Below are positions 36,924 to 52,150 of a stretch of DNA of 64,000 bases, piece after piece (positions within the stretch are counted from its first letter, which is position 1; every line of letters begins with the position of its first letter). A model generated the notes under the pieces. That model ran no database searches, was not told where the DNA came from, and saw only the letters and a program-made list of their open reading frames with translations. The position numbers and the translations under genes are program-made. The DNA is from Thiohalorhabdus sp. Cl-TMA (GTDB taxonomy: Bacteria > Pseudomonadota > Gammaproteobacteria > Thiohalorhabdales > Thiohalorhabdaceae). The DNA is taken from assembly GCF_041821045.1 (NCBI RefSeq), contig NZ_JBGUAW010000003.1, positions 248,001 to 312,000 on the forward strand, read 5' to 3'.

Positions 36924-37787
36924 ATGCGTGTTTCCGGAGTGTGTGCGGCGGCCCTCCTGGGGGGGCTACTGTTGGCGGGCTGCGGGGCCCGGGAAGGACC
37001 GCGAATCCATGCGGTGGAAGGGCCGCCGGAGGCCTTCCCCGCGCCCGCGTACAGGCAGGCGCTCCGGGCGGGGAAGCGGGTTTACCGGGTGGACCCCTGC
37101 CTCTCTCGGGTCACCATACGCGTCTCTGCGGGCGGACCGCTGGCCGAGCTGGGCCATAACCACGTGGTCTCGACCCGGGAGCTGCACGGCTACGTGCTGG
37201 ATCCGGCGGCTGGCGGGTCGGGGCGGACGGATATCTACGTGCCGGTGACCGCGCTTGAGGTGGACAAGCCCCGCCTGGTGGAGGAAGCGGGCTTCGACAC
37301 GGAGCTCTCCGAGCAGGAAAAGGCCCAGACCCGCTACAACATGCTGGCGGAGGTGCTGGAAGCCCATAAGTATCCCTATGTGCGGATCCACGCCACGCCG
37401 GCACCGGATTCCCCCACGCCGCCCGAGGCCCTGACCGTTGACCTGACCATTCACGGGGAGACCCAAACCAGGCGCGTACCCGTCCGGATGCGGCGCACGG
37501 AGGATTGGCTGGAAGTGCGGGGCCGGCTCTCCGTGCGACACGAGGACTTCGGCATGGAGCCCTTCACCGCGCTGGCAGGGCAGCTGCGGGTCAAGGAGGA
37601 GCTGGATCTGCGCTTCCTGGTCCACGCGACGGTCGTGGAGCGGTGGAACGGGGCCGGTGCCGGCTCCGTCCTGGAGGGCGGGGCCAGGCGCTGCACCGTG
37701 GGCGGAGTCGTGGAGACGGTGCCAGCGTGGCCCGAGGGCACCGCCGGAGCGGCTCCGGGCTCAATCGAAGGTGGGCAGCCCCAGTAG
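36924..37787 (+). CDS. YceI-like lipoprotein
   Basis: 287 residues from ATG 36924 (GGGAGGGG). A lipobox LLLAGC ends a lipoprotein signal at about residue 20. The YceI lipocalin-like barrel starts at VYRVDPCLSRVTIRV and includes ELGHNHVV, then DLTIHGETQTRRVPV and VRHEDFGMEPF. YceI proteins bind isoprenoid lipids in the periplasm. An extra C-terminal ~50 residues rich in Gly/Ala extends beyond the fold. Its 3' end overlaps the convergent kaiC by 27 bases. Confidence 0.85.
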   Translation: MRVSGVCAAALLGGLLLAGCGAREGPRIHAVEGPPEAFPAPAYRQALRAGKRVYRVDPCLSRVTIRVSAGGPLAELGHNHVVSTRELHGYVLDPAAGGSGRTDIYVPVTALEVDKPRLVEEAGFDTELSEQEKAQTRYNMLAEVLEAHKYPYVRIHATPAPDSPTPPEALTVDLTIHGETQTRRVPVRMRRTEDWLEVRGRLSVRHEDFGMEPFTALAGQLRVKEELDLRFLVHATVVERWNGAGAGSVLEGGARRCTVGGVVETVPAWPEGTAGAAPGSIEGGQPQ

Positions 37788-39239
37788 GCTGGTGCCCGAT
37801 CCCTGGACCGGGCCGCCTATGCGGAGTCCGCGCTCCGTCACCGTGAAGGTGCGAACCGCCTTGTCCTGATTGGAGCCCCGCATCTTGAGCACCGCCAGTC
37901 CCCGGTGGATTGCCCCCTCCTGCTCCAGGTAGCGCAGCAGCACGATGGTATCGGTCATGCTCGACACCTGATCCTCGGAGACCGACGAGCCGCCCTGGAT
38001 GTTATTGGTGTTGGTGGTGAACAGGGCGGTGATGCCCTGCTCGCGGAGGAAGGCCACCAGCGCGATGACGAACTCGCGGAAGCTCCGCTGGCTGGAAATG
38101 CGCTCCAGGGCGGAGAGGCTGTCCACCACCACCCGCCGGGGGCGCCGGGCTTCCAGCAGGTGCTTGATGCGGATCAGGTGGTCCTCCAGGCTGGCGGTTT
38201 CGGGATAGGCGGCCGAGATGCGGAGCCGCCCGCCGGCCTCCAGATCCTCCAAGGGCATGCCCCAGCCTCGGGCGTTGCGCCGGAGCTGGTCCGCCCCCTC
38301 CTCGAAGGCCAGCAGCAGCGCGGATTCCTCCGGAGCGCCGTTCAGGAAATGGGTGCTGATGAGGGTCTTTCCGGTGCCGGTGGGGCCGGCAACCAGCGTG
38401 ATGGAGCCCTCCAGGAGTCCGCCGTCGCACATACGGTCCAGCTCGGTGTCGCCGAAGGAGGTGCGCGCGCCGGAGGCGGGCCGGTTGAGCTCGATGGCGG
38501 AGAGCGGAACCACGGAGAGCCCGCCCGCTTCCGCGCCGATGGTGAAGGGATACTCCCCCGTCCGGTGGGAGGTGCCGCGCATCTTGAGGACCTCCAGGGT
38601 CCGGCGCCGCTTCTCCCCCTCCAGGCCGTTGCGGAGCAGCACCACCGAATCGGCGACGAACTCCTCCACCTGGAAGCGGGCGATGGGGCCATACTCTTCG
38701 GTGCGCTCTGCGGTGACCAGGGTGGTGATGCCCATGTCCCGAACCGCCGCCATCAGGCGTCCCAGCGCCCGGCGAACCATCTGCTGGTCGCTGAACTGGG
38801 AGAACAGGCTGCCCAGGCTATCCACCACCAGCCGCCGGGCCCCCACCCGGTCCACGGCGTGGCGCAGCCGCGGCAGGAGGGCGCCCAGGTCGAAGCTGCC
38901 CGTTACCGATTCCTCGTCCATGCCGGGGGCCAGATCCACGAAGGCCCACTGCCCGCTTTCCTCCCACTCGGCCACGGGCCAGTCCAGGGCGGCGAGATTG
39001 GCGCGGATGGCCGCCGGCGGCTCCTCGCAGGTGACGAAGACCCCGGGCTCCTCCCGGCGCCGGATCCCCTCGGCAAGGAACTGGGCACAGAAGACCGTCT
39101 TCCCGCTTCCCGAGGAGCCGGCCACCAGGGTCGCCCGACCGCTGGGCAGGCCGCCGTCGGAGATGAACTCGAAGCCCGGGATATCCGTTGGGAACTTGCA
39201 TACCGCCTGCCCGGCGGTGCCGGGGGAAGCTTCAGCCAT
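37761..39239 (-). CDS. kaiC: KaiC-family circadian-clock-type ATPase
   Basis: 492 residues, two RecA-like domains. CI has Walker A GSSGSGKT and the catalytic Glu pair in [11 protein letters not shown] has GPTGTGKT and LAFEEG. The autophosphorylation pair of cyanobacterial KaiC (Ser431/Thr432) corresponds to S426/S427 in QVSSMTDT, so both acceptors are serines. The C-terminal A-loop region used by KaiA is short. kaiB overlaps it by eight bases; no kaiA was seen. A timer or stress-type Kai system is likely, not a proven clock. Confidence 0.93.
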
Positions 39240-39540
39240 GGGGGTCCGCTCCGTTGTGGGGGCCGTGCAGAGGGCGCAGGTCCAGGCCCAGAAGGACCTG
39301 GTCCTTGTCCGACAGGTCCCCGATTACCCGGCGCAGGGGCGTCGGGAGCTCCTTGATCAGGGTCGGAGTGGCCAGGATTTTCTCGTCCTCGGCAAGCTGG
39401 GGCTTCTCGAGAACGTCGATGATCTCCAGCTCGTAGCGGCCCGCCAGCTCCTCGTCCATGATGCGCCGCAGGTTCGCGACGGCCTGCTGGGAGTGCTGGG
39501 TGGGTCCGGTGATGTAGAGCTTGAGCAGGTATTTCTCCAT
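39232..39540 (-). CDS. kaiB: KaiB-like protein
   Basis: 102 residues with the KaiB thioredoxin-like pattern: [29 protein letters not shown], then [31 protein letters not shown]. KaiB switches fold to bind KaiC CI and slow it. The gene lies nine bases after the GGDEF-EAL gene and overlaps kaiC, so sensor, KaiB and KaiC are one transcript. The C-terminus has a short Gly/His tail. Confidence 0.93.
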
Positions 39541-39549
39541 GGAGCCTTC

Positions 39550-42021
39550 CTACCGGCTGGCGGGATGCGTGTCGGGGGAGTACGGATGATCCGGGCTGCG
39601 GAGGTGCTCGATCAAGGGCCCCTGGGGCATGGGTCTGGCGAACAGGAATCCCTGGGCGAAATCGCAGTTTTCCAGCGCGAGGCAGGAGGCCTGGGCCCGG
39701 GTCTCCACCCCTTCCGCCAGCACGGAAAGGCCCAGGCCGTGGGTCATGGCGATGATGGCCCGCACCAGGGAGCGATTCTCTGCGGAGTCGGGGAGGTCGC
39801 GTACGAAGGACAGGTCGATCTTCACCAGGTCGAAGGGCAGCTGGCGAAGGAAGGTGAGGGCGGAGTAGCCCTTGCCGAAGTCGTCCATGGCGATATGCAG
39901 CCCGCGACGGCGGAGCTGGGACAGTATGCGCACCGATTCCCGGATGTCGCCCGTGACGCCGGACTCGGTGAGCTCGATGCCCAGGCGGTCCCCGGAGATC
40001 CCCTCCTCCCGGAGGACCCGGTCCACCAGCCCCACCAGGTCTCCCGACACCAACTGCTGGGCGGAGACGTTGACCCAGACCCGGTCCACGCCTACTCCGG
40101 CCCGGTCCCATTCCCGGAGATCCGTGCAGACCTGGTGGAGGACCCATTCGCCCACGGAATGGATGAGTCCGGTTTCCTCCAGCAGGGGGATGAACTCGCC
40201 CGGCGAGACCATGCCGTGCTCCGGTGCTTCCCAGCGGAGGAGTGCCTCCAGGCCCTTCAGGCCGCCGTCGGCGAGGGAGACCTGGGGCTGGTAGAAGACC
40301 CGGAATTCGCCCTGGGTCTCCGCTCGCCGCAGGCCCTGCTCCAGTCGGAACCGACGCGAGGCCGCCTTTCCCTGGTCCGGGACGAAGGTCTGGATCTGGC
40401 TGCGTCCGGAGCCCTTGGCCTCGTACATGGCGGTGTCCGCCCGCATGAGCAGGGTCTCGGGGTCCCGGCCGTCATCGGGATAGAGGCTGACACCGATGGT
40501 GCCCGCGGGGGTGATCTGGTTGCCCTCGATGTCCATGGGGGAGGCCAGGCTGTCGCGGAGCTTTTCCGCCACCGCCAGGGCGTCCTCCCGGGTTTCCACA
40601 CCCTCGAGGATGATGGTGAACTCGTCGCCGCTCATGCGCGCGACGGTGTCCATGGCGCGGGTGCCGTCCCGCAGCCTGCGGGCCACCTCGCGGAGTAGCT
40701 GGTCCCCGGCGGCGTGCCCGAGGGTATCGTTGACCTCCTTGAAACGGTCCAGGTCCAGGAAGAGCACCGCGAGGCGCGATCGGCCCTCCCGTGCCCGTTC
40801 CAGGGCGGATTCCAGGGCCCCGCGGAAGCTGGTGCGGTTGGGAAGGCCGGTAAGGTCGTCGTGGTAGGCCTGGTAGCGGGCCGCTTGCTCGGCCCGCTGG
40901 CGCTCGGTGACATCGTGGAAGGTCACCAGGAAGGCGCTGCCCCCGCCCCATACCGTGGGCTGGAAGCTGATCTCCGCCACGCCGGCGCTGCCGTCCTTGC
41001 GGCGGATGTCGATCTCCGTGCTCCGGCCGGATACCACGGGGATGCCCAGGGGCGTTCCCTCCAGCTCCTCGGCGCTGCGGTTCATGAGCTGCTGCGCGGC
41101 GGGGTTGGTGAACAGGATGCCCCCGTTCTGGTCGTCCACCACCATCATCCCGGTCTGGGACTGGGTGATGAGCTCGCGGATCTCCCGGAAGGTGCCCTGG
41201 AGCCGCTCGGCCATGCGGTTCAGGCTGTCGGCCAGGTCGCCGATCTCGTCGTTACCGTTCTCCTCGGCGCGCAACTCCAGGTTGCCGCGGCCCCATTCCT
41301 GGGCGACGCCGTTCAAGCGGTGCAGCCGGCCCAGTATGCGCCAACGGACCAGGAGAAAGACCGTGAGCCCGGCCAGCAGGACCATGCCCAGCGCATAGCC
41401 GATGGCGTTCCAATAAGTCTCGCTCAGCTGGGTCTTCGCCGTCTCCAGGGTGGTGCTCACCCGGACCACGCCCAGCACGGAGCGGTCCGAATAGCCGTGG
41501 CAGCTCTCGCAGGCGGGCTCATTGACCAGGGGAAAGAGGTAGTCGATGCGGCCTTCTTCCCAGCGGGCCCGGCTTACCCGCTCCCCCTTCAAGGCGCTCT
41601 GAAGAAGCGCATCGGGGAGGTCGGTTGGGGTCTTCCCGGGCCGGGCCGGCCTGGTGAAGGCCTCCCCGCCCAAGTAGGCGTTGACCCGCCGCAGGGTCTG
41701 GCGGTCCCGGAAGGCCAGCTTTCCGCCGGGCCGCAGGACCTGAATGCTTTCCAAAGAGGGATGGGTGCGTGTCTCCGCCAGCCACTCCCGCACAAGCTCC
41801 GCATTTCCAGTGAGCAGGAGGCTGTGCAGGCTCGAAACCATGCCCTTCTCGAAGCCTTGCAGATGATGGCGCTTTTCGCCGATGACGGTGCTCTGGTACA
41901 GGGTATGCAGCAGGAGGAGCCCGATGGCGAGGAGGACGCCCAGTACCAGGGAGAGGGTGAGGGCGAATCGGGCGCTGAGCCGGGACCAGTACCGCCGGCC
42001 GGAGGAAGAACGCGTAAGCAA
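39550..42021 (-). CDS. Membrane sensor with haem c motif, HAMP, PAS, GGDEF and EAL domains
   Basis: 823 residues. A first membrane helix (~20-42) and a second (~215-235) flank a periplasmic domain with CESCHGYSD, a CxxCH haem c site as in DUF3365-type redox sensors. Then come HAMP, PAS (near 290-400), GGDEF with the site written MSGDEF instead of GGDEF, and EAL with EALLRWEAP, the DDFGKGYSAL loop and late metal ligands. The GGDEF change SGDEF still permits activity in some enzymes; the EAL residues look competent. It controls c-di-GMP and shares a transcript with kaiB and kaiC. Confidence 0.92.
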   Translation of the reverse strand: MLTRSSSGRRYWSRLSARFALTLSLVLGVLLAIGLLLLHTLYQSTVIGEKRHHLQGFEKGMVSSLHSLLLTGNAELVREWLAETRTHPSLESIQVLRPGGKLAFRDRQTLRRVNAYLGGEAFTRPARPGKTPTDLPDALLQSALKGERVSRARWEEGRIDYLFPLVNEPACESCHGYSDRSVLGVVRVSTTLETAKTQLSETYWNAIGYALGMVLLAGLTVFLLVRWRILGRLHRLNGVAQEWGRGNLELRAEENGNDEIGDLADSLNRMAERLQGTFREIRELITQSQTGMMVVDDQNGGILFTNPAAQQLMNRSAEELEGTPLGIPVVSGRSTEIDIRRKDGSAGVAEISFQPTVWGGGSAFLVTFHDVTERQRAEQAARYQAYHDDLTGLPNRTSFRGALESALERAREGRSRLAVLFLDLDRFKEVNDTLGHAAGDQLLREVARRLRDGTRAMDTVARMSGDEFTIILEGVETREDALAVAEKLRDSLASPMDIEGNQITPAGTIGVSLYPDDGRDPETLLMRADTAMYEAKGSGRSQIQTFVPDQGKAASRRFRLEQGLRRAETQGEFRVFYQPQVSLADGGLKGLEALLRWEAPEHGMVSPGEFIPLLEETGLIHSVGEWVLHQVCTDLREWDRAGVGVDRVWVNVSAQQLVSGDLVGLVDRVLREEGISGDRLGIELTESGVTGDIRESVRILSQLRRRGLHIAMDDFGKGYSALTFLRQLPFDLVKIDLSFVRDLPDSAENRSLVRAIIAMTHGLGLSVLAEGVETRAQASCLALENCDFAQGFLFARPMPQGPLIEHLRSPDHPYSPDTHPASR

Positions 42022-42972: not shown

Positions 42973-43000
42973 TTGTCTGTCGGATGGGGCCCTCTATAAT
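42973..43000 (+). promoter_or_regulatory. Sigma-70-like promoter
   Basis: TTGTCT, a 16-base spacer and a perfect TATAAT. It lies 31 bases before the GTG of the CheX-like gene and overlaps the ATG at 42999, which argues against that ATG as a start. Confidence 0.7.
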
Positions 43001-43031
43001 GCCGGGCGCGCCCTTAGCACTCGAGGCCCAC

Positions 43032-43631
43032 GTGGGAACTTCTTCCGACCTCCTTCCGGAACCGGAAGCCATCGCCGAATACCTTTCCGCCAGCCTGGGC
43101 ACTCCCTCGGAGGTCCTGGGGCCGGAGCTGTGGGTGCTGTACAAGCTCAAGCAGGCGGCGCGCCGCTCCGGCGGGGTGCTGGCGGTGCCCCTCTACAATC
43201 TGGAGGGAGAGGAGGCGGTGGAGCTGGGCTGGATGGCCATCGGCATCCGCATGGCCGTGGCCATCGGCGGCACCATGGTCCGCGACCCCAACCTCCGGGA
43301 GAAGGTGGGCTTCAACCAGACCGACGAGCTGCTGATGGACGCCGCGCAGGAAACCCTCAACATCGTCAGCGTGGCCTTCAACCAGAAGCTGGAGACCCTG
43401 GGCTGGCACAGCGGCATCCGCACCGGGACCATGGAGATGCTCTCCCCCGAGGAGCTGGACAGGCAGGTGCTGCGGACGGGGGAGGGCGTGCTGTCCGGTC
43501 TCTATATCCTGCGCTTCCCGAAGCTCAACCTGCCTTCCTGGACCAAGCGACTGGGATCGCTGGGAATCGCCTTCCACTGCGACCCGGAGCAGGGGCCGCG
43601 GCCCCTGATCATGCGGTCCGGCGATGAATAG
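43032..43631 (+). CDS. CheX/CheC-like putative phosphatase
   Basis: 199 residues from GTG 43032 (GAGG five bases before). No close family was recognised, but ELLMDAAQETLNIVSVAFN contains the D-x3-E-x2-N signature of CheC/CheX/FliY phosphatases, placed on a helix after a strand-rich segment as in that fold. The remaining sequence (IRMAVAIGGTMV...) is compatible. It would dephosphorylate a response regulator. It is followed after 27 bases by the PilZ-like gene. Confidence 0.6.
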   Translation: MGTSSDLLPEPEAIAEYLSASLGTPSEVLGPELWVLYKLKQAARRSGGVLAVPLYNLEGEEAVELGWMAIGIRMAVAIGGTMVRDPNLREKVGFNQTDELLMDAAQETLNIVSVAFNQKLETLGWHSGIRTGTMEMLSPEELDRQVLRTGEGVLSGLYILRFPKLNLPSWTKRLGSLGIAFHCDPEQGPRPLIMRSGDE

Positions 43632-43658: not shown

Positions 43659-44276
43659 ATGAGCGATTCCCGGAGGGAGCGCCCTTTCCCGGCGAACGAG
43701 CTGCGGATGCTGGCGGAACGGGTCCACGAGGGGTCCCTCAGTCCCGGGGCCGTGGACTACCTCCTTTCCGCGGCGGGGCGCCTGGAGGAGCTCCTGGCCT
43801 ACCGCCCGGGTGGGGGGCCGGTTCCGGAGGCGGGCGAGCCCTCCTCCGGGGCGGTGGAGAGCCTGGCCGACCTACAGGACCGGCTCGGCGCGATCGGCGA
43901 CCGGGCGGCTGGCGCGGGCGCCGATCCGGCTGTAACGGAATACCTGCGGACCGTGCTCCTGCGGGCCACTCTCCTTCACCAGCAGGAGCCCCCGGATATG
44001 CGTCTGGTTCCCCGCTTTCCCGAGACGCGGCCCGCCCGGGTGCATCCCGCCGGGGGCTCTACCCTGGACGCGCTCCTGGTGGACCGCTCCGCCCTGGGGT
44101 TCGGTCTTCGCGCCGGGGAGCCGGTTGCCGAGGGTCAGCTGGCGACCCTGGAGCTGCCGCCCGTGGCGGACGCCGAGGCGGAAGTCCATGAGTGCCTGGT
44201 GATCTTCTGCCGGGAAACCGAGCCCGGGGTGCTCCGGGTCGGCCTGGATGTGGTGGATGGGGACTGTGCGGGCTAG
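43659..44276 (+). CDS. PilZ-like domain protein
   Basis: 205 residues. The N-terminal ~125 residues look helical. The C-terminal part has RLVPRFPETRPARV followed by LLVDRSALGFGL, matching the RxxxR and D-x-S-x-x-G elements of PilZ c-di-GMP receptors. Its neighbours are the CheX-like protein (same operon) and a divergent GGDEF-EAL sensor about 1.6 kb away. Binding of c-di-GMP is inferred from these motifs only. Confidence 0.6.
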   Translation: MSDSRRERPFPANELRMLAERVHEGSLSPGAVDYLLSAAGRLEELLAYRPGGGPVPEAGEPSSGAVESLADLQDRLGAIGDRAAGAGADPAVTEYLRTVLLRATLLHQQEPPDMRLVPRFPETRPARVHPAGGSTLDALLVDRSALGFGLRAGEPVAEGQLATLELPPVADAEAEVHECLVIFCRETEPGVLRVGLDVVDGDCAG

Positions 44277-44411
44277 CAAGTCCCGGCAGGGCCGCCCTTT
44301 TTTCCTCCCAGAATCGGCGTATCCCCCTTCCCTGGCTCGGCATCCTGCACCAAAGTGGGATACCCGTTCGAAGTGCCGTGACCGAACACGCACCCCTTTG
44401 GTAGGAATCCC

Positions 44412-47400
44412 ATGAGCGACGATCCCATCCGTTTCGACGGACTCTCCTATAACGACCTCCGCGGACCCGCCGGTCTGCAGCGCCTGGACGAGCGTTTCCG
44501 CGTGCACCTGGAGCAGCAGGACCCGGAGCTGCTGCGGCGCTTGGTGGATTTCCGCCAGGCGGCGAGCACGCCGCCCGCGCTGGAGCACAGCCAGCTCCTG
44601 CTGGACCTCGCCCCGCACGTGGAGGCCTTCATCGCCGCGCTGTTCGGCATCGACGCAGCCACCCGGGAGGCCGGCGTGGCCACGGCGGCGCAGAATCCCC
44701 CCTTCGCCTTTCAGCAGGAGGTGGTGCAAAAGCGCACCAAGCGCCTGTGGGGGAAGGTGGAGGAGGACTTCGCCGACCTGGATGCCTGGCTGGACGATCG
44801 GCTGAAGGCGCATGGTATCGACCGCGCCGACCGCGAGCTGGCGGTGGGCGAGCTCACCGTGGCCCTGGCGGCGGACCGCAAGGCCAACAAGGCGGAGCTG
44901 GACCGGCTGGCGGCCTGGGCGGTGCGCGCCCGCGAGACGGAAGAGGGCCGGGCCGTCACCGGCGACTGGGTGAGCTTCCGCACCCCCGACCGGGTGGACG
45001 TGGACCACCTGGTGCCGGTACGCAAGGCCACGGACAAGTCCCCCAACGCGGTGGAGTCCCCCGGCCGCTTCCGGGCGCGGGACGGCTTCGAGCTCACCGA
45101 TCCGCGCATGTCCGCCCGAGAGGCCCAGGGGGAGGTGAACTACTGCATCTACTGTCACGACCACGACGGCGACTTCTGCTCCAAGGGCTTTCCCGAGAAG
45201 AAGGGACAGCCGGAGCTGGGCTTCAAGGTGAGCGCCATCGGCAACACGCTGCACGGCTGTCCGCTGGAGGAGAAGATCTCCGAGATGGACCTCCTCAAGC
45301 GGGACGGCTACACCATCGCGCCGTTGGCGACGGCCATGGTGGACAACCCCATGGTGCCCGCCACCGGGCACCGCATCTGCAACGACTGCATGAAGTCCTG
45401 CATCTTCCAGAAGCAGCAGCCGGTGAATGTCCCGCAGATCGAGACCCGGGTGCTCACGGATGTCCTGGATCTGCCCTGGGGCGTGGAGGTGTACGACCTG
45501 CTCACCCGCTGGAATCCCCTCCGCCACGAGCAGTACGTGCAGAAGGCCTACAACGGCAAGAAGGTGCTGGTGGCGGGCATGGGCCCCGCCGGCTTCACCA
45601 TGGCCCACCACCTGACCATGGAGGGCTGCGCGGTGGTGGGGGTGGACGGCCTCAAGATCGAGCCCCTGCCGGAGGAGTTCCGCGACCGCCCTATCCGTGA
45701 CTACGCCGAGCTGGAGGAGCCCCTGGACCGCCGCATCAACTACGGCTTCGGCGGGGTGGCCGAGTACGGCATCACGGTGCGCTGGGACAAGAACTTCTTA
45801 AAGCTCATCTACCTGACCCTGGCGCGGCGGGAGACCTTCCAGGTGTTCGGCGGCGTGCGCCTGGGCGGCACCCTGACGCTTGAGGACGCCTGGGCCCTGG
45901 GCTTCCATCACGTCTGCAACGCCAGCGGAGCTGGGCTGCCGCGGGTCATCCAGATGGGCAACAGCCTGGCGCGGGGCATGCGCCAGGCCAACGACTTCCT
46001 CATGGCCCTGCAGCTCACCGGTGCCGCCAAGCAGGAGAGCCTGGCCAACCTCCAGGTGCGCCTGCCGGCGGTGGTGATCGGCGGCGGCCTCACCGCCATC
46101 GACACCGCCACCGAGCTGCAGGCCTACTACATCCAGCAGGTGGAGAAGGCCCTGGACCGCCACGAGCGCCTGGCCGCCGTCTACGGCGAGGAGTCCCTCT
46201 GGGAGAAGCTGGACGAGGAGAACGCCGGCATCCTGGAGGAGCTCCTGGCCCACGGCCGGGCGGTGCGGGCGGAGCGCGAGCGGGCCGCGGCGGAGGGGCG
46301 CAAGCCGGACTTCCTGCCCCTGCTGCGCGAATGGGGCGGGGTGACGGTGGCCTATCGCCGGCCCATGAACGAGTCCCCCTCCTACAAGCGCAACCACGAG
46401 GAAGTGGTCAAGGCGCTGGAGGAGGGTATCTACTTCGAGGAGCGCCTGGAGCCCATCCACGCCGTCCTGGACCGCTTCGGGCACGTGCAGTCCCTGCAGT
46501 TCCGGCGCCGGCGCGACCCCCAGGGCAAGCCCCTTTCCGTGCCGGAGGACGTGGAGCTGCCGGCGCGGGGTATCTTCGTGGCGGCCGGAACCGTGCCCAA
46601 CACCATCTACGAGCGGGAGCATCCCGGCACCGCGGAGCTGGAGGACAACCACTACCGGCCCTACGTCCACCACCGCCACGAGCTCCAGGCGGTGGATACG
46701 CCGCAGCACTGCAAGGAGGAGGAGTTCGGGCCGTTCACCTCCTATCGGGCCGACGGCCGGTACATGACCTTCCTCGGCGATACCCACCCCGCCTTCTCGG
46801 GCAGCGTGGTGAATGCCATCGCCTCCGGGCTGCGCACCTATCCCCACGTCATGACCGCCCTGCGCGACCAGGGGCCGGTGGAAGCCGACTGGGTGGCGTA
46901 TCGGGCCTTCCGGGAGCGCATGGAATACATGCTCGCCCCGCGGGTCTCGTCGATGGACGCCAGTCATCCGGCAGTGGTGGAGCTGCGGGTGCGCGCCCCC
47001 ATGGCCGCGCGCAACTTCCGGCCGGGGCAGTTCTTCCGCATGCAGACCTTCGAGAGCCACGTGCCCAAGGTGGCGGACACGCGCCTCCAGGTGCCGCTGC
47101 AGACGGTGAGCGGCGCCGGCGTGGAGGGGGACCTGATGCGCCTGTTCGTGCTCAAGGGCGGCATCGGCGGCCGCCTGTCGGCGCGTCTCAAGCCCGGCGA
47201 TCCCCTGGTGCTCATGGGCCCCACCGGCGCGCCCACGGAGATGGGCTCGGGCAAGACCATCATGGTGGTGGCCGGGCGCTGGGGGGCGGCGGTCATGCTG
47301 GCCCTGGGCCCCGCCCTGCGCGCGGCCGGCAATCGGGTGATCTATTTCGGCGCCTTCCGCCGGGCCGAGGAGCCGTATTACCGGGAGCAGCTGGAGGCGG

Positions 47401-47906
47401 CCACGGACCAGATCGTCTGGGCCACCGCCGACGGCGAGCCCATCCCCGCGAGCCGGCCACAGGACATCAGCGTTTCCACCGGGGACGCGGTGGACCTGAT
47501 TCGCCGCTATGGCGACGGCGAGCTGAGCGGCCCCGAGGCACCCCACCTGCCCCTGGGAGAGGTGGACGAGGTGCTGGTCATGGGCTCCACCGGACTGCTC
47601 TACGGCATGCAGCAGGCCCTTTCCCCGGACGGGGCCCTGGCGCCGTATTTCCGGGAAGGGGTGGAGATCCAGGGCACCGCTGGCAGCCCCATGCAGTGCA
47701 TGCTCAAGGGCGTGTGCTCGCAGTGCCTGCAGTGGCAGGTGGACCCGGAGACGGGCCGCCGTACCCAGACCGTGTTCTCCTGCGCGGAGCAGGACCAGCC
47801 CCTCCTGGCCCTGGATTTGGAGAACCTTTGGGCCCGCCAGACCCAGAACCGGCTCCCGGACATGATGGCCGATCTGTGGCTCAATCACCTCCTTGAGGGA
47901 GAGTAG
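44412..47906 (+). CDS. Single-chain GltD-like plus PyrK-like flavoprotein (Nfn-like fusion)
   Basis: 1164 residues. Order: helical N-terminal region (1-~235); an Fe-S segment with YCIYCHDHDGDFC (C near 246), GCPLEEKI and CNDCMKSC as in GltD; a GltD-type FAD/NAD(P) domain (VLVAGMGPAGFTMAH, later VVIGGGLTAIDTATEL) with a long helical insert around 570-640; then, from about residue 845, a ferredoxin-reductase/PyrK-like FAD and NAD half (FRPGQFFRMQTF) ending in CMLKGVCSQC...FSC, a [2Fe-2S] site. The parts match NfnL/NfnS joined in one chain. It probably shuttles electrons between NAD(P)H and ferredoxin. The pntA/B genes lie about 1.5 kb downstream. Confidence 0.85.
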   Translation: MSDDPIRFDGLSYNDLRGPAGLQRLDERFRVHLEQQDPELLRRLVDFRQAASTPPALEHSQLLLDLAPHVEAFIAALFGIDAATREAGVATAAQNPPFAFQQEVVQKRTKRLWGKVEEDFADLDAWLDDRLKAHGIDRADRELAVGELTVALAADRKANKAELDRLAAWAVRARETEEGRAVTGDWVSFRTPDRVDVDHLVPVRKATDKSPNAVESPGRFRARDGFELTDPRMSAREAQGEVNYCIYCHDHDGDFCSKGFPEKKGQPELGFKVSAIGNTLHGCPLEEKISEMDLLKRDGYTIAPLATAMVDNPMVPATGHRICNDCMKSCIFQKQQPVNVPQIETRVLTDVLDLPWGVEVYDLLTRWNPLRHEQYVQKAYNGKKVLVAGMGPAGFTMAHHLTMEGCAVVGVDGLKIEPLPEEFRDRPIRDYAELEEPLDRRINYGFGGVAEYGITVRWDKNFLKLIYLTLARRETFQVFGGVRLGGTLTLEDAWALGFHHVCNASGAGLPRVIQMGNSLARGMRQANDFLMALQLTGAAKQESLANLQVRLPAVVIGGGLTAIDTATELQAYYIQQVEKALDRHERLAAVYGEESLWEKLDEENAGILEELLAHGRAVRAERERAAAEGRKPDFLPLLREWGGVTVAYRRPMNESPSYKRNHEEVVKALEEGIYFEERLEPIHAVLDRFGHVQSLQFRRRRDPQGKPLSVPEDVELPARGIFVAAGTVPNTIYEREHPGTAELEDNHYRPYVHHRHELQAVDTPQHCKEEEFGPFTSYRADGRYMTFLGDTHPAFSGSVVNAIASGLRTYPHVMTALRDQGPVEADWVAYRAFRERMEYMLAPRVSSMDASHPAVVELRVRAPMAARNFRPGQFFRMQTFESHVPKVADTRLQVPLQTVSGAGVEGDLMRLFVLKGGIGGRLSARLKPGDPLVLMGPTGAPTEMGSGKTIMVVAGRWGAAVMLALGPALRAAGNRVIYFGAFRRAEEPYYREQLEAATDQIVWATADGEPIPASRPQDISVSTGDAVDLIRRYGDGELSGPEAPHLPLGEVDEVLVMGSTGLLYGMQQALSPDGALAPYFREGVEIQGTAGSPMQCMLKGVCSQCLQWQVDPETGRRTQTVFSCAEQDQPLLALDLENLWARQTQNRLPDMMADLWLNHLLEGE

Positions 47907-49362: not shown

Positions 49363-50496
49363 ATGGCCGTAACGCTTGGGGTACCCAAGGAAACCACGGA
49401 GACCGAGAACCGAGTGGCTCTGGTTCCCGATGTGGCTAGACAGCTCATCGGCCGTGGGATGGAAGTGCGGATGCAGCCGGGGGCGGGGGCCGGAGCCTTC
49501 TTCGCCGACGGCGATTACCACGACGTGCGGATGGTGGAGGAGCGGGAGGACCTGTACCGCGAGGCGGACGTGCTGCTCAAGGTCCAGCCCCCGAGCCTGG
49601 AGGAGATCGATCTGCTCGGTCCGGAGACGGCAGTGCTGGGACTCCTGGATCCCCTGGGCAGCCCGGAGCGGGTTTCGCGGCTGCGCGATCGGGGGGTCAC
49701 TGCCTTCGCCATGGAGCTGGTGCCCCGCGTGGCCCGGGCGCAGGCGATGGACGCCCTTTCCTCCCAGGCCAGCATCGCCGGATACAAGGCCGCGCTGATG
49801 GCCGCGGACCTGGCGCCCCGGTTCTTCCCCATGCTCACCACCGCCGCCGGGACCGTGCGGCCGGCCAAGGTCCTGGTGCTCGGCGCGGGGGTCGCCGGCC
49901 TGCAGGCCATCGCCACTTCGCATCGGCTCGGCGCCTCGGTGTCCGCCTATGACGTGCGGCCCGAGACCAAGGACCAGGTGGCCTCTCTGGGGGCCACCTT
50001 CCTGGAGCTTGGCGTGGGCGCCTCGGCGGAGGGCGGTTACGCCCGGGAGCTCACCGAGGAGGAGAAGCGCCAGGAGCAGGAGCTCCTGGCGGACCGGATC
50101 GCCGACATGGACGTGGTGATCTCCACGGCTGCGGTGCCGGGCCGAAAAGCGCCGATCCTGGTGCGGGAGGCGGATGTGACGGCCATGCGCCCGGGATCGG
50201 TGATCGTGGACTTGGCCGCCGAGACCGGCGGCAATTGCGAATGCACCCAGGCCGGGGAGACGGTGCGCCACGAGGGGGTGCTGGTCTATGGGCCGCGCAA
50301 CGTCCCGGGCCGCCTGCCCGTTCACGCCAGCGAGATGTACGCCCGCAATCTGGCCAATTTCCTGGACCTGCTGGTACGGGACGGGCAGTGGGCCCCGGAC
50401 TGGGAGGACGAGGTGGTCGCCCAGACCGTGCTCACCCGGGAAGGCAGCGTAGTCCCCGAAACCGTCCGCGAGCGGGTGGAAGGAGGTGCAACTTGA
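49363..50496 (+). CDS. pntA: NAD(P) transhydrogenase subunit alpha, part 1 (dI domain)
   Basis: 377 residues covering only the soluble NAD(H)-binding domain: GVPKETTETENRVALVPD at the start, SSQASIAGYKAA, the nucleotide motif VLVLGAGVAGLQAIATSHRLGA and VDLAAETGGNCE. In the enzyme this domain passes hydride to the NADP domain of PntB at the cytoplasmic face of the inner membrane. Its stop overlaps the TTG of part 2 (TTGA). The split alpha subunit is the alphaproteobacterial-type three-gene layout. Confidence 0.94.
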   Translation: MAVTLGVPKETTETENRVALVPDVARQLIGRGMEVRMQPGAGAGAFFADGDYHDVRMVEEREDLYREADVLLKVQPPSLEEIDLLGPETAVLGLLDPLGSPERVSRLRDRGVTAFAMELVPRVARAQAMDALSSQASIAGYKAALMAADLAPRFFPMLTTAAGTVRPAKVLVLGAGVAGLQAIATSHRLGASVSAYDVRPETKDQVASLGATFLELGVGASAEGGYARELTEEEKRQEQELLADRIADMDVVISTAAVPGRKAPILVREADVTAMRPGSVIVDLAAETGGNCECTQAGETVRHEGVLVYGPRNVPGRLPVHASEMYARNLANFLDLLVRDGQWAPDWEDEVVAQTVLTREGSVVPETVRERVEGGAT

Positions 50497-50786
50497 TCGA
50501 AGGCTTCGTCGCGCTCTATATCTTCATCCTGGCCGCGTTCACCGGCTACGAGATCATCAGCCGGGTTCCGGAGACCCTGCATACGCCGCTCATGTCGGGG
50601 GCCAACTTCGCACACGGCATCGTCGTGGTGGGCGCCATGGTCGCCCTCAGCCACGCGGATTCGCTGGCCGGGCAGGCGCTGGGCTTCGTGGCCGTGCTGC
50701 TCGCCGCCATGAACGCGGTGGGCGGCTACGTGGTCACCGAACGGATGCTGCGCATGTTCAAGCACAGCCAGGGAGGCCGGGAATGA
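50493..50786 (+). CDS. NAD(P) transhydrogenase subunit alpha, part 2 (membrane dII)
   Basis: 97 residues from TTG 50493, with AGGAGG at proper spacing, overlapping pntA1 by four bases. Three membrane helices include GYEIISRVPETLHTPLMSGANFAHGIVVVGAM, the usual proton-path segment, and end in YVVTERMLRMF. It overlaps pntB by four bases. It supplies the alpha half of the proton channel. Confidence 0.92.
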   Translation: MIEGFVALYIFILAAFTGYEIISRVPETLHTPLMSGANFAHGIVVVGAMVALSHADSLAGQALGFVAVLLAAMNAVGGYVVTERMLRMFKHSQGGRE

Positions 50787-52150
50787 GCTACGTTCTCCAG
50801 AGCGGCTATCTGGTGGCCGCGGTACTGCTGATCCTCGGCCTGCGCGGCATGAGCTCGCCCCGGACCGCCCATCGCGGCCTGGTCTGGGTAGGGGTGGGCA
50901 TGGTGCTGGCGGTGCTCGTCACCTTCATCCACACCGGCACCGGCAACATCGGGCTGATGCTTCTGGCTCTGGTGCTGGGCGGTGTCCTTTCGGCGGTCTA
51001 CGGTCGGCAGGTGCCCATGACCGCCATGCCCCAGGGGGTGGCCCTGTTCAACGGCATGGGCGGCGGCGCCGCCGGCGCCATCGCCGCCGTGGAGCTGGTG
51101 GGCGGTTCGGCGACGGGGGGCGCGCCGCTGGTGCTCGGCGTGCTGGGCGCCCTGATCGGTACCGTCTCCCTGACCGGCAGCGGCGTGGCCTTCGCCAAGC
51201 TGCAGGGCTGGATGCGGCGACCCCTGCGCTTCGCCGGCATGCCGCTGGTGAACGGCCTGCTCGCGGTATTCGCGCTGGGCCTGGGCATCGCCCTGATGGC
51301 CGGGGTACAGACGGATCCCGTGCTGGCCGCCTACTTCGGGGTGGCCATGGCCCTCGGGGTCCTGCTGACCATGCCCATCGGCGGGGCCGACATGCCCGTG
51401 GTCATTTCCCTGTACAACGCCGCCACCGGCCTGGCGGTGGCCTTCGAAGGCTATCTCCTCAGCAACCCGGCCATGATCATCGCCGGGACCGTGGTCGGCG
51501 CCGCCGGTACCCTGCTTACCCTGCTCATGGCCCGGGCCATGCATCGCACGGTGTTCCAGGTGGTGGGCGCGGGCTTCCGATCCCCGGAGGCCGACGCGGC
51601 GGCCACGCAGGAGGGCGGGATGCTCAAGGGGATCGAGCCCGTGGACGCGGGCATCCAGCTCGGCTACGCCCGCAAGGTGATCATCGTTCCCGGCTACGGG
51701 ATGGCGGTGGCGCAGGCCCAGCACAAGGTCTGGGAGCTGGTGCAGCGCCTGGAGGAGCGCGGCGTGGAGGTGAAGTTCGCCATCCACCCGGTGGCGGGCC
51801 GGATGCCGGGCCACATGAACGTGCTGCTGGCCGAGGCCGGGGTGCCGTACGATCTGGTGGCCGATCTGGAGACCATCAATCCGGAGTTCGCCCAGGCGGA
51901 CGTGGCCCTGGTGATCGGTGCCAACGACGTGGTCAATCCCTCCGCCCGCAACATGCCGGACAGTCCCATCTACGGCATGCCCATTCTCAACGTGGACGAG
52001 GCCGCCAACGCCATAGTAATCAAGCGGGGCAGCGGCCAGGGCTTCTCCGGGGTGGAGAACCCGCTGTTCACCGCCGACAACACCCGCATCCTGTTCCGGG
52101 ATGCCCTGGAAGGGGCCTCGGATCTGGTGCAGGCCCTGAAGCAGGCATGA
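50783..52150 (+). CDS. pntB: NAD(P) transhydrogenase subunit beta
   Basis: 455 residues. About eight to nine membrane helices (1-~265) are followed by the NADP(H)-binding dIII domain, with VIIVPGYGMAVAQAQHKVWEL, IHPVAGRMPGHMNVLLAEA and GANDVVNPSARN. It uses the proton gradient to reduce NADP+ with NADH, supplying NADPH for thiol, selenium and arsenic reduction. Its stop overlaps the next gene by four bases. Confidence 0.95.
   Translation: MSYVLQSGYLVAAVLLILGLRGMSSPRTAHRGLVWVGVGMVLAVLVTFIHTGTGNIGLMLLALVLGGVLSAVYGRQVPMTAMPQGVALFNGMGGGAAGAIAAVELVGGSATGGAPLVLGVLGALIGTVSLTGSGVAFAKLQGWMRRPLRFAGMPLVNGLLAVFALGLGIALMAGVQTDPVLAAYFGVAMALGVLLTMPIGGADMPVVISLYNAATGLAVAFEGYLLSNPAMIIAGTVVGAAGTLLTLLMARAMHRTVFQVVGAGFRSPEADAAATQEGGMLKGIEPVDAGIQLGYARKVIIVPGYGMAVAQAQHKVWELVQRLEERGVEVKFAIHPVAGRMPGHMNVLLAEAGVPYDLVADLETINPEFAQADVALVIGANDVVNPSARNMPDSPIYGMPILNVDEAANAIVIKRGSGQGFSGVENPLFTADNTRILFRDALEGASDLVQALKQA

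Follow-up and report, generated by a model that had tools for sequence, protein, structure and literature searches.

An open reading frame in the window (the whole 64,000-nt stretch of DNA analyzed here) encodes a 1,164-residue protein that, as judged from its predicted structure and its sequence, is a single-chain Nfn-type flavoprotein at the level of fold. We put at about 0.5 the probability that this protein descends from an Nfn-type enzyme and works, in soluble form and as one chain, as an NADPH:ferredoxin oxidoreductase, with cofactors, direction, and partner that we infer. The family to which it belongs is widespread in bacteria, many of them ordinary aerobes. The frame runs uninterrupted from an ATG at 44412, the earliest possible start in that frame, to the stop codon at 47906, and is laid out as follows.

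44412..47906, forward strand: open reading frame of the single-chain Nfn-like iron-sulfur flavoprotein (1,164 aa; coordinates include the stop codon)
44403..44406, forward strand: AGGA, resembling a ribosome-binding site, 5 bases upstream of the ATG (read from the sequence)
44412..45065, forward strand: all-helical N-terminal domain, residues 1 to 218 (predicted structure, pLDDT 91)
45066..45446, forward strand: GltD/NfnB-type iron-sulfur domain, residues 219 to 345 (alignment; profile match)
45549..46121, forward strand: FAD-binding half and start of the NADPH-binding domain, residues 380 to 570 (GxGPAG at 389 to 394; GGGLT..D at 557 to 564)
46119..46331, forward strand: helical hairpin inserted in the NADPH-binding domain, residues 570 to 640 (alignment and AlphaFold2 model)
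46332..46868, forward strand: remainder of the NADPH-binding domain, after which the chain re-enters the FAD domain, residues 641 to 819 (YRR at 648 to 650)
46938..47903, forward strand: NfnA/PyrK-type half with an NfnA-like C-terminal helix, residues 843 to 1164 (fold and profile)

The 1,164-residue frame proposed in an earlier sequence-only reading is real. Among 56 related genomes searched, 10 others from the class carry full-length homologues at 46 to 85% identity; these, with many more elsewhere, exclude a chance origin. The relatives number at least 563 across 84,980 scanned species, and the full-length ones overall range from 41 to 85% identity. The best 80 loci among these relatives come from gammaproteobacteria, Acidithiobacillus, Methylococcales, Myxococcota, Acidobacteriota, Nitrospirota, and one Planctomycetota bin. 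With the NCBIfam model NF005128 (PRK06567), strong relatives (E under 1e-90) turned up in about 70 of the 369 genomes searched from the class, and the gene is present in roughly one-fifth of the genomes sampled there. The same model detected further relatives elsewhere in the phylum, which we take to be alphaproteobacterial.

The sequence-only reading had joined a GltD-type and a PyrK-type half under an Nfn likeness, and structure and profile comparisons bear out both the halves and the likeness. In the AlphaFold2 model (mean pLDDT 78, pTM 0.80), residues from about 190 to 820 correspond to the Nfn large subunit and residues from about 843 to 1164 to the small subunit. Foldseek placed NfnI L and Xfn first for the large half (1e-18) and returned NfnI S for the small half (5e-13). 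VIA-align superposed about 436 residues (model residues 190 to 819) with Z scores of 23.3 for NfnI L and 22.5 for Xfn; glutamate synthase (GltS) reached 21.7, about 1.6 Z behind the first-ranked NfnI L. Profiles built from 44 family members favor the Nfn subunits: the large half scores 90 to 92 bits against 5jca_L and 5vj7_A versus 38 bits against GltS, and the small half scores 72 bits against 5jca_S (NfnA) versus 34 bits against PyrK, with its C-terminal helix aligned to that of NfnA. In a large-half tree, a long stem leads to a single clade holding the family (100/100), and GltD (99/98) and Nfn (79/78) form groups of their own. The proposed comparison of the halves with NfnA/NfnB and GltD/PyrK by tree thus yielded a clade of its own for the large half, but because the tree is unrooted, it does not name the nearest pair among the family, Nfn, and GltD.

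The protein shares with NfnAB/NfnI of Pyrococcus furiosus and Nfn of Thermotoga maritima both folds, the large-half FAD and NADPH sites, a glutamate cluster ligand, and the C-terminal helix of the small half. It differs from them in being one chain in the order large-small, with an additional 218-residue N-terminal domain, the hairpin at residues 570 to 640, an all-cysteine [2Fe-2S] motif, and altered flavin and NAD motifs in the small half. Xfn (5vj7, an NADP-ferredoxin oxidoreductase) is the best or second-best match to the large half by both profile and fold, but has two chains.

The sites of the large half are strictly conserved. The glycines of the GxGPAG and GGGL..D motifs are invariant in 91 members, and the Nfn large-subunit fold with its FAD and NADPH sites is present. 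Residues C245, C248, C256, C283, C323, C326, and C330, the seven cysteines of this half, are likewise invariant in 91 of 91 members, as is E344, suggesting that residues 219 to 345 hold two [4Fe-4S] clusters with a glutamate ligand, a feature of Nfn seen here at the sequence level. By analogy with dihydropyrimidine dehydrogenase, C283, C323, C326, and E344 would presumably ligate the FAD-proximal cluster, with C245, C248, C256, and C330 at the outer one. E344 aligns exactly with E126 of P. furiosus NfnL, the glutamate ligand of the proximal cluster in that enzyme (PMC9503767). We considered E344 as proof of bifurcation and dropped the idea; GltD has the same glutamate, so the residue does not prove Nfn chemistry.

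Two parts of the protein, the N-terminal 235 or so residues and an insert near residues 570 to 640, had been noted as explained by neither half, and both observations hold. Within the two regions singled out for checking (residues 1 to 235 and 560 to 650), structure prediction yields a helical domain at residues 1 to 218 and a hairpin at residues 570 to 640; the domain search that was to accompany it returned no matches for the N-terminal domain. Residues 1 to 218 have no Pfam hit common to members, no PDB sequence match under an E value of 0.2, and no Foldseek match under an E value of 1, and the best VIA-align Z score is 3.7 over 56 residues. These negative searches do not by themselves establish a novel fold. 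The full-length members that we compared all retain the N-terminal domain, though at weak conservation (31% mean column identity), and NF005128 spans it. The hairpin is specific to the family: it is absent from Nfn chains in the profile alignment, and its residues Y573, H614, and A625 are invariant. Our guess is that the N-terminal domain and the hairpin serve docking or assembly.

The small half departs from Nfn at three motifs.

47094..47114, forward strand: PLQTVSG, residues 895 to 901, in the place of the Nfn flavin motif ERxPxT (Arg missing, Ser kept)
47271..47291, forward strand: AGRWGAA, residues 954 to 960, in the place of the NAD pyrophosphate loop GGGxGxA (altered in this protein's clade)
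47697..47783, forward strand: C-x5-C-x2-C-x18-C, residues 1096 to 1124, all-cysteine [2Fe-2S] motif (alignment)

In Nfn, the [2Fe-2S] motif is DGTGMCGxCRx10CV, with an aspartate ligand (PMC6405883). The aspartate-type motif DGTGMCG is seen in Ilyobacter, Enterococcus, Bacteroides, and PRK12775 proteins, and as DATGMCG in PRK12779. In the present family, four cysteines (C1096, C1102, C1105, and C1124) are invariant in 91 of 91 members, the first replacing the aspartate of Nfn. The arginine of ERxPxT is missing family-wide, the corresponding strand being EGxALT in class I, one of three classes into which the small half sorts by motif. Class I (40 of 91 members, plus all eight checked members from elsewhere in the phylum) has an intact NAD loop, GGGLGNA, and a threonine at the flavin position. 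Class II (29 members, including the protein studied here) mostly has AG[RKSA]WGAA and a serine, and most rows of class III (22 members) have neither the NAD loop nor the flavin serine or threonine. Identities in the small and large halves are 67 and 64% in class I, 62 and 69% in class II, and 44 and 66% in class III. From the sequences, the class II small half looks altered but constrained and that of class III looks relaxed; the 62% conservation in class II argues for a kept function rather than decay. Class I is probably ancestral, because it is spread over the most phyla and keeps the Nfn-like loop. What is new here is the all-cysteine [2Fe-2S] motif across the whole family and the three small-half motif classes that retain its cysteines, together with the genomic pattern of fdxA and Fpr and the adjacency of fdxA in some lineages, both given below. 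Because the NAD loop, ERxPxT, and the aspartate-ligated [2Fe-2S] motif are all missing from the class II protein in the window, its use of NAD(H) cannot be assumed. Given the GGGLGNA loop and threonine of class I, NAD(H) use may nonetheless persist in the family at large.

A single-chain Nfn had been put forward as a departure from the two-chain NfnAB, which is not new: Liang et al. (PMC6405883) described fused Nfn homologues in three patterns in 2019. Their Pattern C comprises uncharacterized fused homologues from Proteobacteria with the GltD-type half first. As judged from the published description, the present protein resembles Pattern C in being one chain with the GltD-type half first and the FAD/NAD/[2Fe-2S] half (cofactors from domain order) at the C terminus. 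Pattern C is, however, described as about 200 residues longer than the fused Nfn of Clostridium, whereas the present protein is about 400 residues longer (1,164 aa versus 766 aa for the Pattern B protein at locus L155). PRK12779-type proteins share the domain order of Pattern C; the example at locus L120 differs from the present protein in length (956 aa) and in its aspartate-type motif, VDATGMCGAC. Such 956-residue fused Nfn proteins, with the aspartate-type [2Fe-2S] motif and an N-terminal region of their own, occur at L120 to L127 in one family of the phylum. Between this N-terminal region (L120) and ours, hhalign detected no match (probability 1%). The AU test neither establishes nor rejects a common origin with the PRK12779-type proteins (p = 0.476).

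Database models recognize the protein poorly. Pfam gives weak matches to Pyr_redox_2 (8e-5) and Fer4_20 (0.013), both below cut-off. NF005128 aligns over nearly the whole length, including the N-terminal domain (model positions 9 to 683 and 738 to 924 against residues 13 to 701 and the C-terminal half), but the score of 562 bits is far under the curated cut-off of 1072, which no member in 398 sampled genomes of the phylum reaches. The sequence-only reading had been made to hinge on a described full-length family with a known, different activity; NF005128 provides the coverage, while its activity, as "putative bifunctional glutamate synthase subunit beta/2-polyprenylphenol hydroxylase," is a name given by similarity alone. 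The only paper that we found using this name, on Neorickettsia, inferred the activity from it (PMC5481527).

The genomic neighborhood varies between lineages. The sequence-only reading had tied the protein to NADPH balance through nearby pnt genes, which are indeed present:

49363-50496, forward strand: PntA, proton-translocating transhydrogenase
50780-52150, forward strand: PntB, proton-translocating transhydrogenase

These are neighbors only within the genus. Outside it, PntB is absent by tblastn from all 92 homologous loci, and PntA-like matches reach only 28 to 31% identity, high identity being confined to the genus. Upstream in the window, kaiC, kaiB, and a HAMP-PAS-GGDEF-EAL gene lie together on the reverse strand (37761-42021); kaiB and kaiC are not found near the family gene in any of the 92 loci. 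Two forward-strand open reading frames directly upstream (42984-43631 and 43659-44276) have no Pfam hit; the latter is PilZ-like by eye and has a 45% identical partner beside the homologue at L003 only.

Clustering of neighboring genes revealed no conserved operon. Greedy gene picking overlooks genes where GC content is high, and we therefore searched the 92 loci directly by tblastn, finding FdxA near the gene in 8 of them, one as a short partial match. Five are gammaproteobacterial (L006, L007, L088, L102, and L103) and three are from Acidithiobacillus (L015, L047, and L048). The fdxA gene lies directly upstream in L047 and about 0.6 to 3.3 kb away in the six other loci with an intact fdxA. 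Across 339 genomes of the class, fdxA is common overall (272 genomes) and is present in all 66 genomes with the family gene, versus 206 of 273 without it (p = 1.4e-7). E. coli-type Fpr shows the opposite trend, occurring in 6 of 66 genomes with the gene versus 103 of 273 without it (p = 3e-6), as detected with one E. coli query that may miss divergent Fpr types. By taxonomic family, the only level at which kinship was allowed for (total taken as about 177 families), the Fpr counts are 6 of 39 versus 59 of 138 (p = 0.0014). There are 170 genomes with neither the family gene nor E. coli-type Fpr. The genome studied here has FdxA and no Fpr match.

We propose that NADPH would bind the GltD/NfnB-like half and exchange hydride with the FAD there, and that electrons would then pass through the two putative [4Fe-4S] clusters, held by the seven cysteines and Glu344, to ferredoxin, most likely the seven-iron FdxA. 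The PyrK/NfnA-like half would provide a second electron route ending at the all-cysteine [2Fe-2S] cluster. In this protein's clade, where the NAD loop is altered, the small half probably no longer uses NAD(H) in the manner of Nfn and may pass electrons on internally or deliver them to another acceptor. Several observations argue for the oxidoreductase reading: the invariant large-half motifs, cysteines, and E344, with the matches to Nfn and Xfn; the presence of fdxA in every gene-bearing genome, its adjacency in some lineages, and the scarcity of Fpr; the loss in most of class III of the NAD loop and flavin residue while the [2Fe-2S] cysteines are kept; and the organism's possession of its own GltD. 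The proposed task is that of Fpr, the bacterial ferredoxin-NADP reductase, which has a different architecture without a GltD-type half; genomes tend to have either Fpr or the family gene but not both. Arguing against our reading, the partner of FprA in Pseudomonas aeruginosa appears to be Fdx1, not FdxA (PMC5302815), and fdxA is widespread in the class in any case.

The same features admit other readings. A true electron-bifurcating Nfn in one chain, in which NADPH oxidation drives reduction of ferredoxin and NAD+, or the reverse, would account for the matches to both Nfn subunits, the kept glutamate, and the class I loop and threonine. We consider it unlikely, though worth keeping in view, since the aspartate ligand has become cysteine in every member, ERxPxT lacks its arginine family-wide, the NAD loop of this protein is AGRWGAA, and the equally good match Xfn is named only a ferredoxin-NADP oxidoreductase. 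We give a similarly low chance to an enzyme that bifurcates, or acts as a branch point, with its second branch running through the [2Fe-2S] cluster to an acceptor other than NAD+, such as a protein docked by the N-terminal domain. It is favored by cysteines that stay invariant even where the flavin and NAD motifs erode and by a weakly conserved N-terminal domain that is nonetheless kept; no nearby partner gene is conserved, except fdxA in some lineages.

A reductase dedicated to one metabolic enzyme is suggested by the mobilizable Acidithiobacillus caldus plasmid pTcM1 (locus L153, 6361-14035), on which the order is gntR, a fumarate/APS-reductase-like flavoprotein gene, a 4Fe-4S protein gene, HEAT, fdxA, and the family gene, with fdxA 149 bp upstream on the same strand; the module has been described as ferredoxin/APS reductase/GntR. 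L047 also has the fdxA and small 4Fe-4S genes of this module ahead of its family gene. This arrangement is confined to some Acidithiobacillus loci and neighbors differ elsewhere, making a dedicated role, for example with the APS-reductase-like flavoprotein, improbable. Least probable is a fusion involving the glutamate synthase small subunit, as in the similarity-based name of NF005128 that was repeated for Neorickettsia (PMC5481527). We rejected this identity: the organism has a separate GltD above the family cut-off, the present protein scores only 32.5 and 25.8 bits against the GltD models TIGR01317 and TIGR01318 (cut-offs 447.7 and 482.95), profiles favor Nfn over GltS, and the family clade lies outside GltD.

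The prevailing view assigns Nfn to anaerobes. In 2019, a single aerobe with an Nfn homologue was known (PMC6405883). We tentatively suggest that the proteins described here form a large, overlooked single-chain family derived from Nfn, a NADPH:ferredoxin oxidoreductase that would replace Fpr in aerobes and whose NAD(H) branch would have been rebuilt or lost in two of three classes while the [2Fe-2S] cluster was kept. If this is true, the classes would form a natural series from a three-substrate to a two-substrate enzyme and could be compared directly to learn what enables Nfn to bifurcate. The oxidoreductase reading would also replace a misleading database name. The family would shift where Nfn-type ferredoxin chemistry is expected, to about a fifth of the genomes of the class and to Myxococcota, Acidobacteriota, and methanotrophs, and could explain how ferredoxin stays reduced in bacteria without Fpr.
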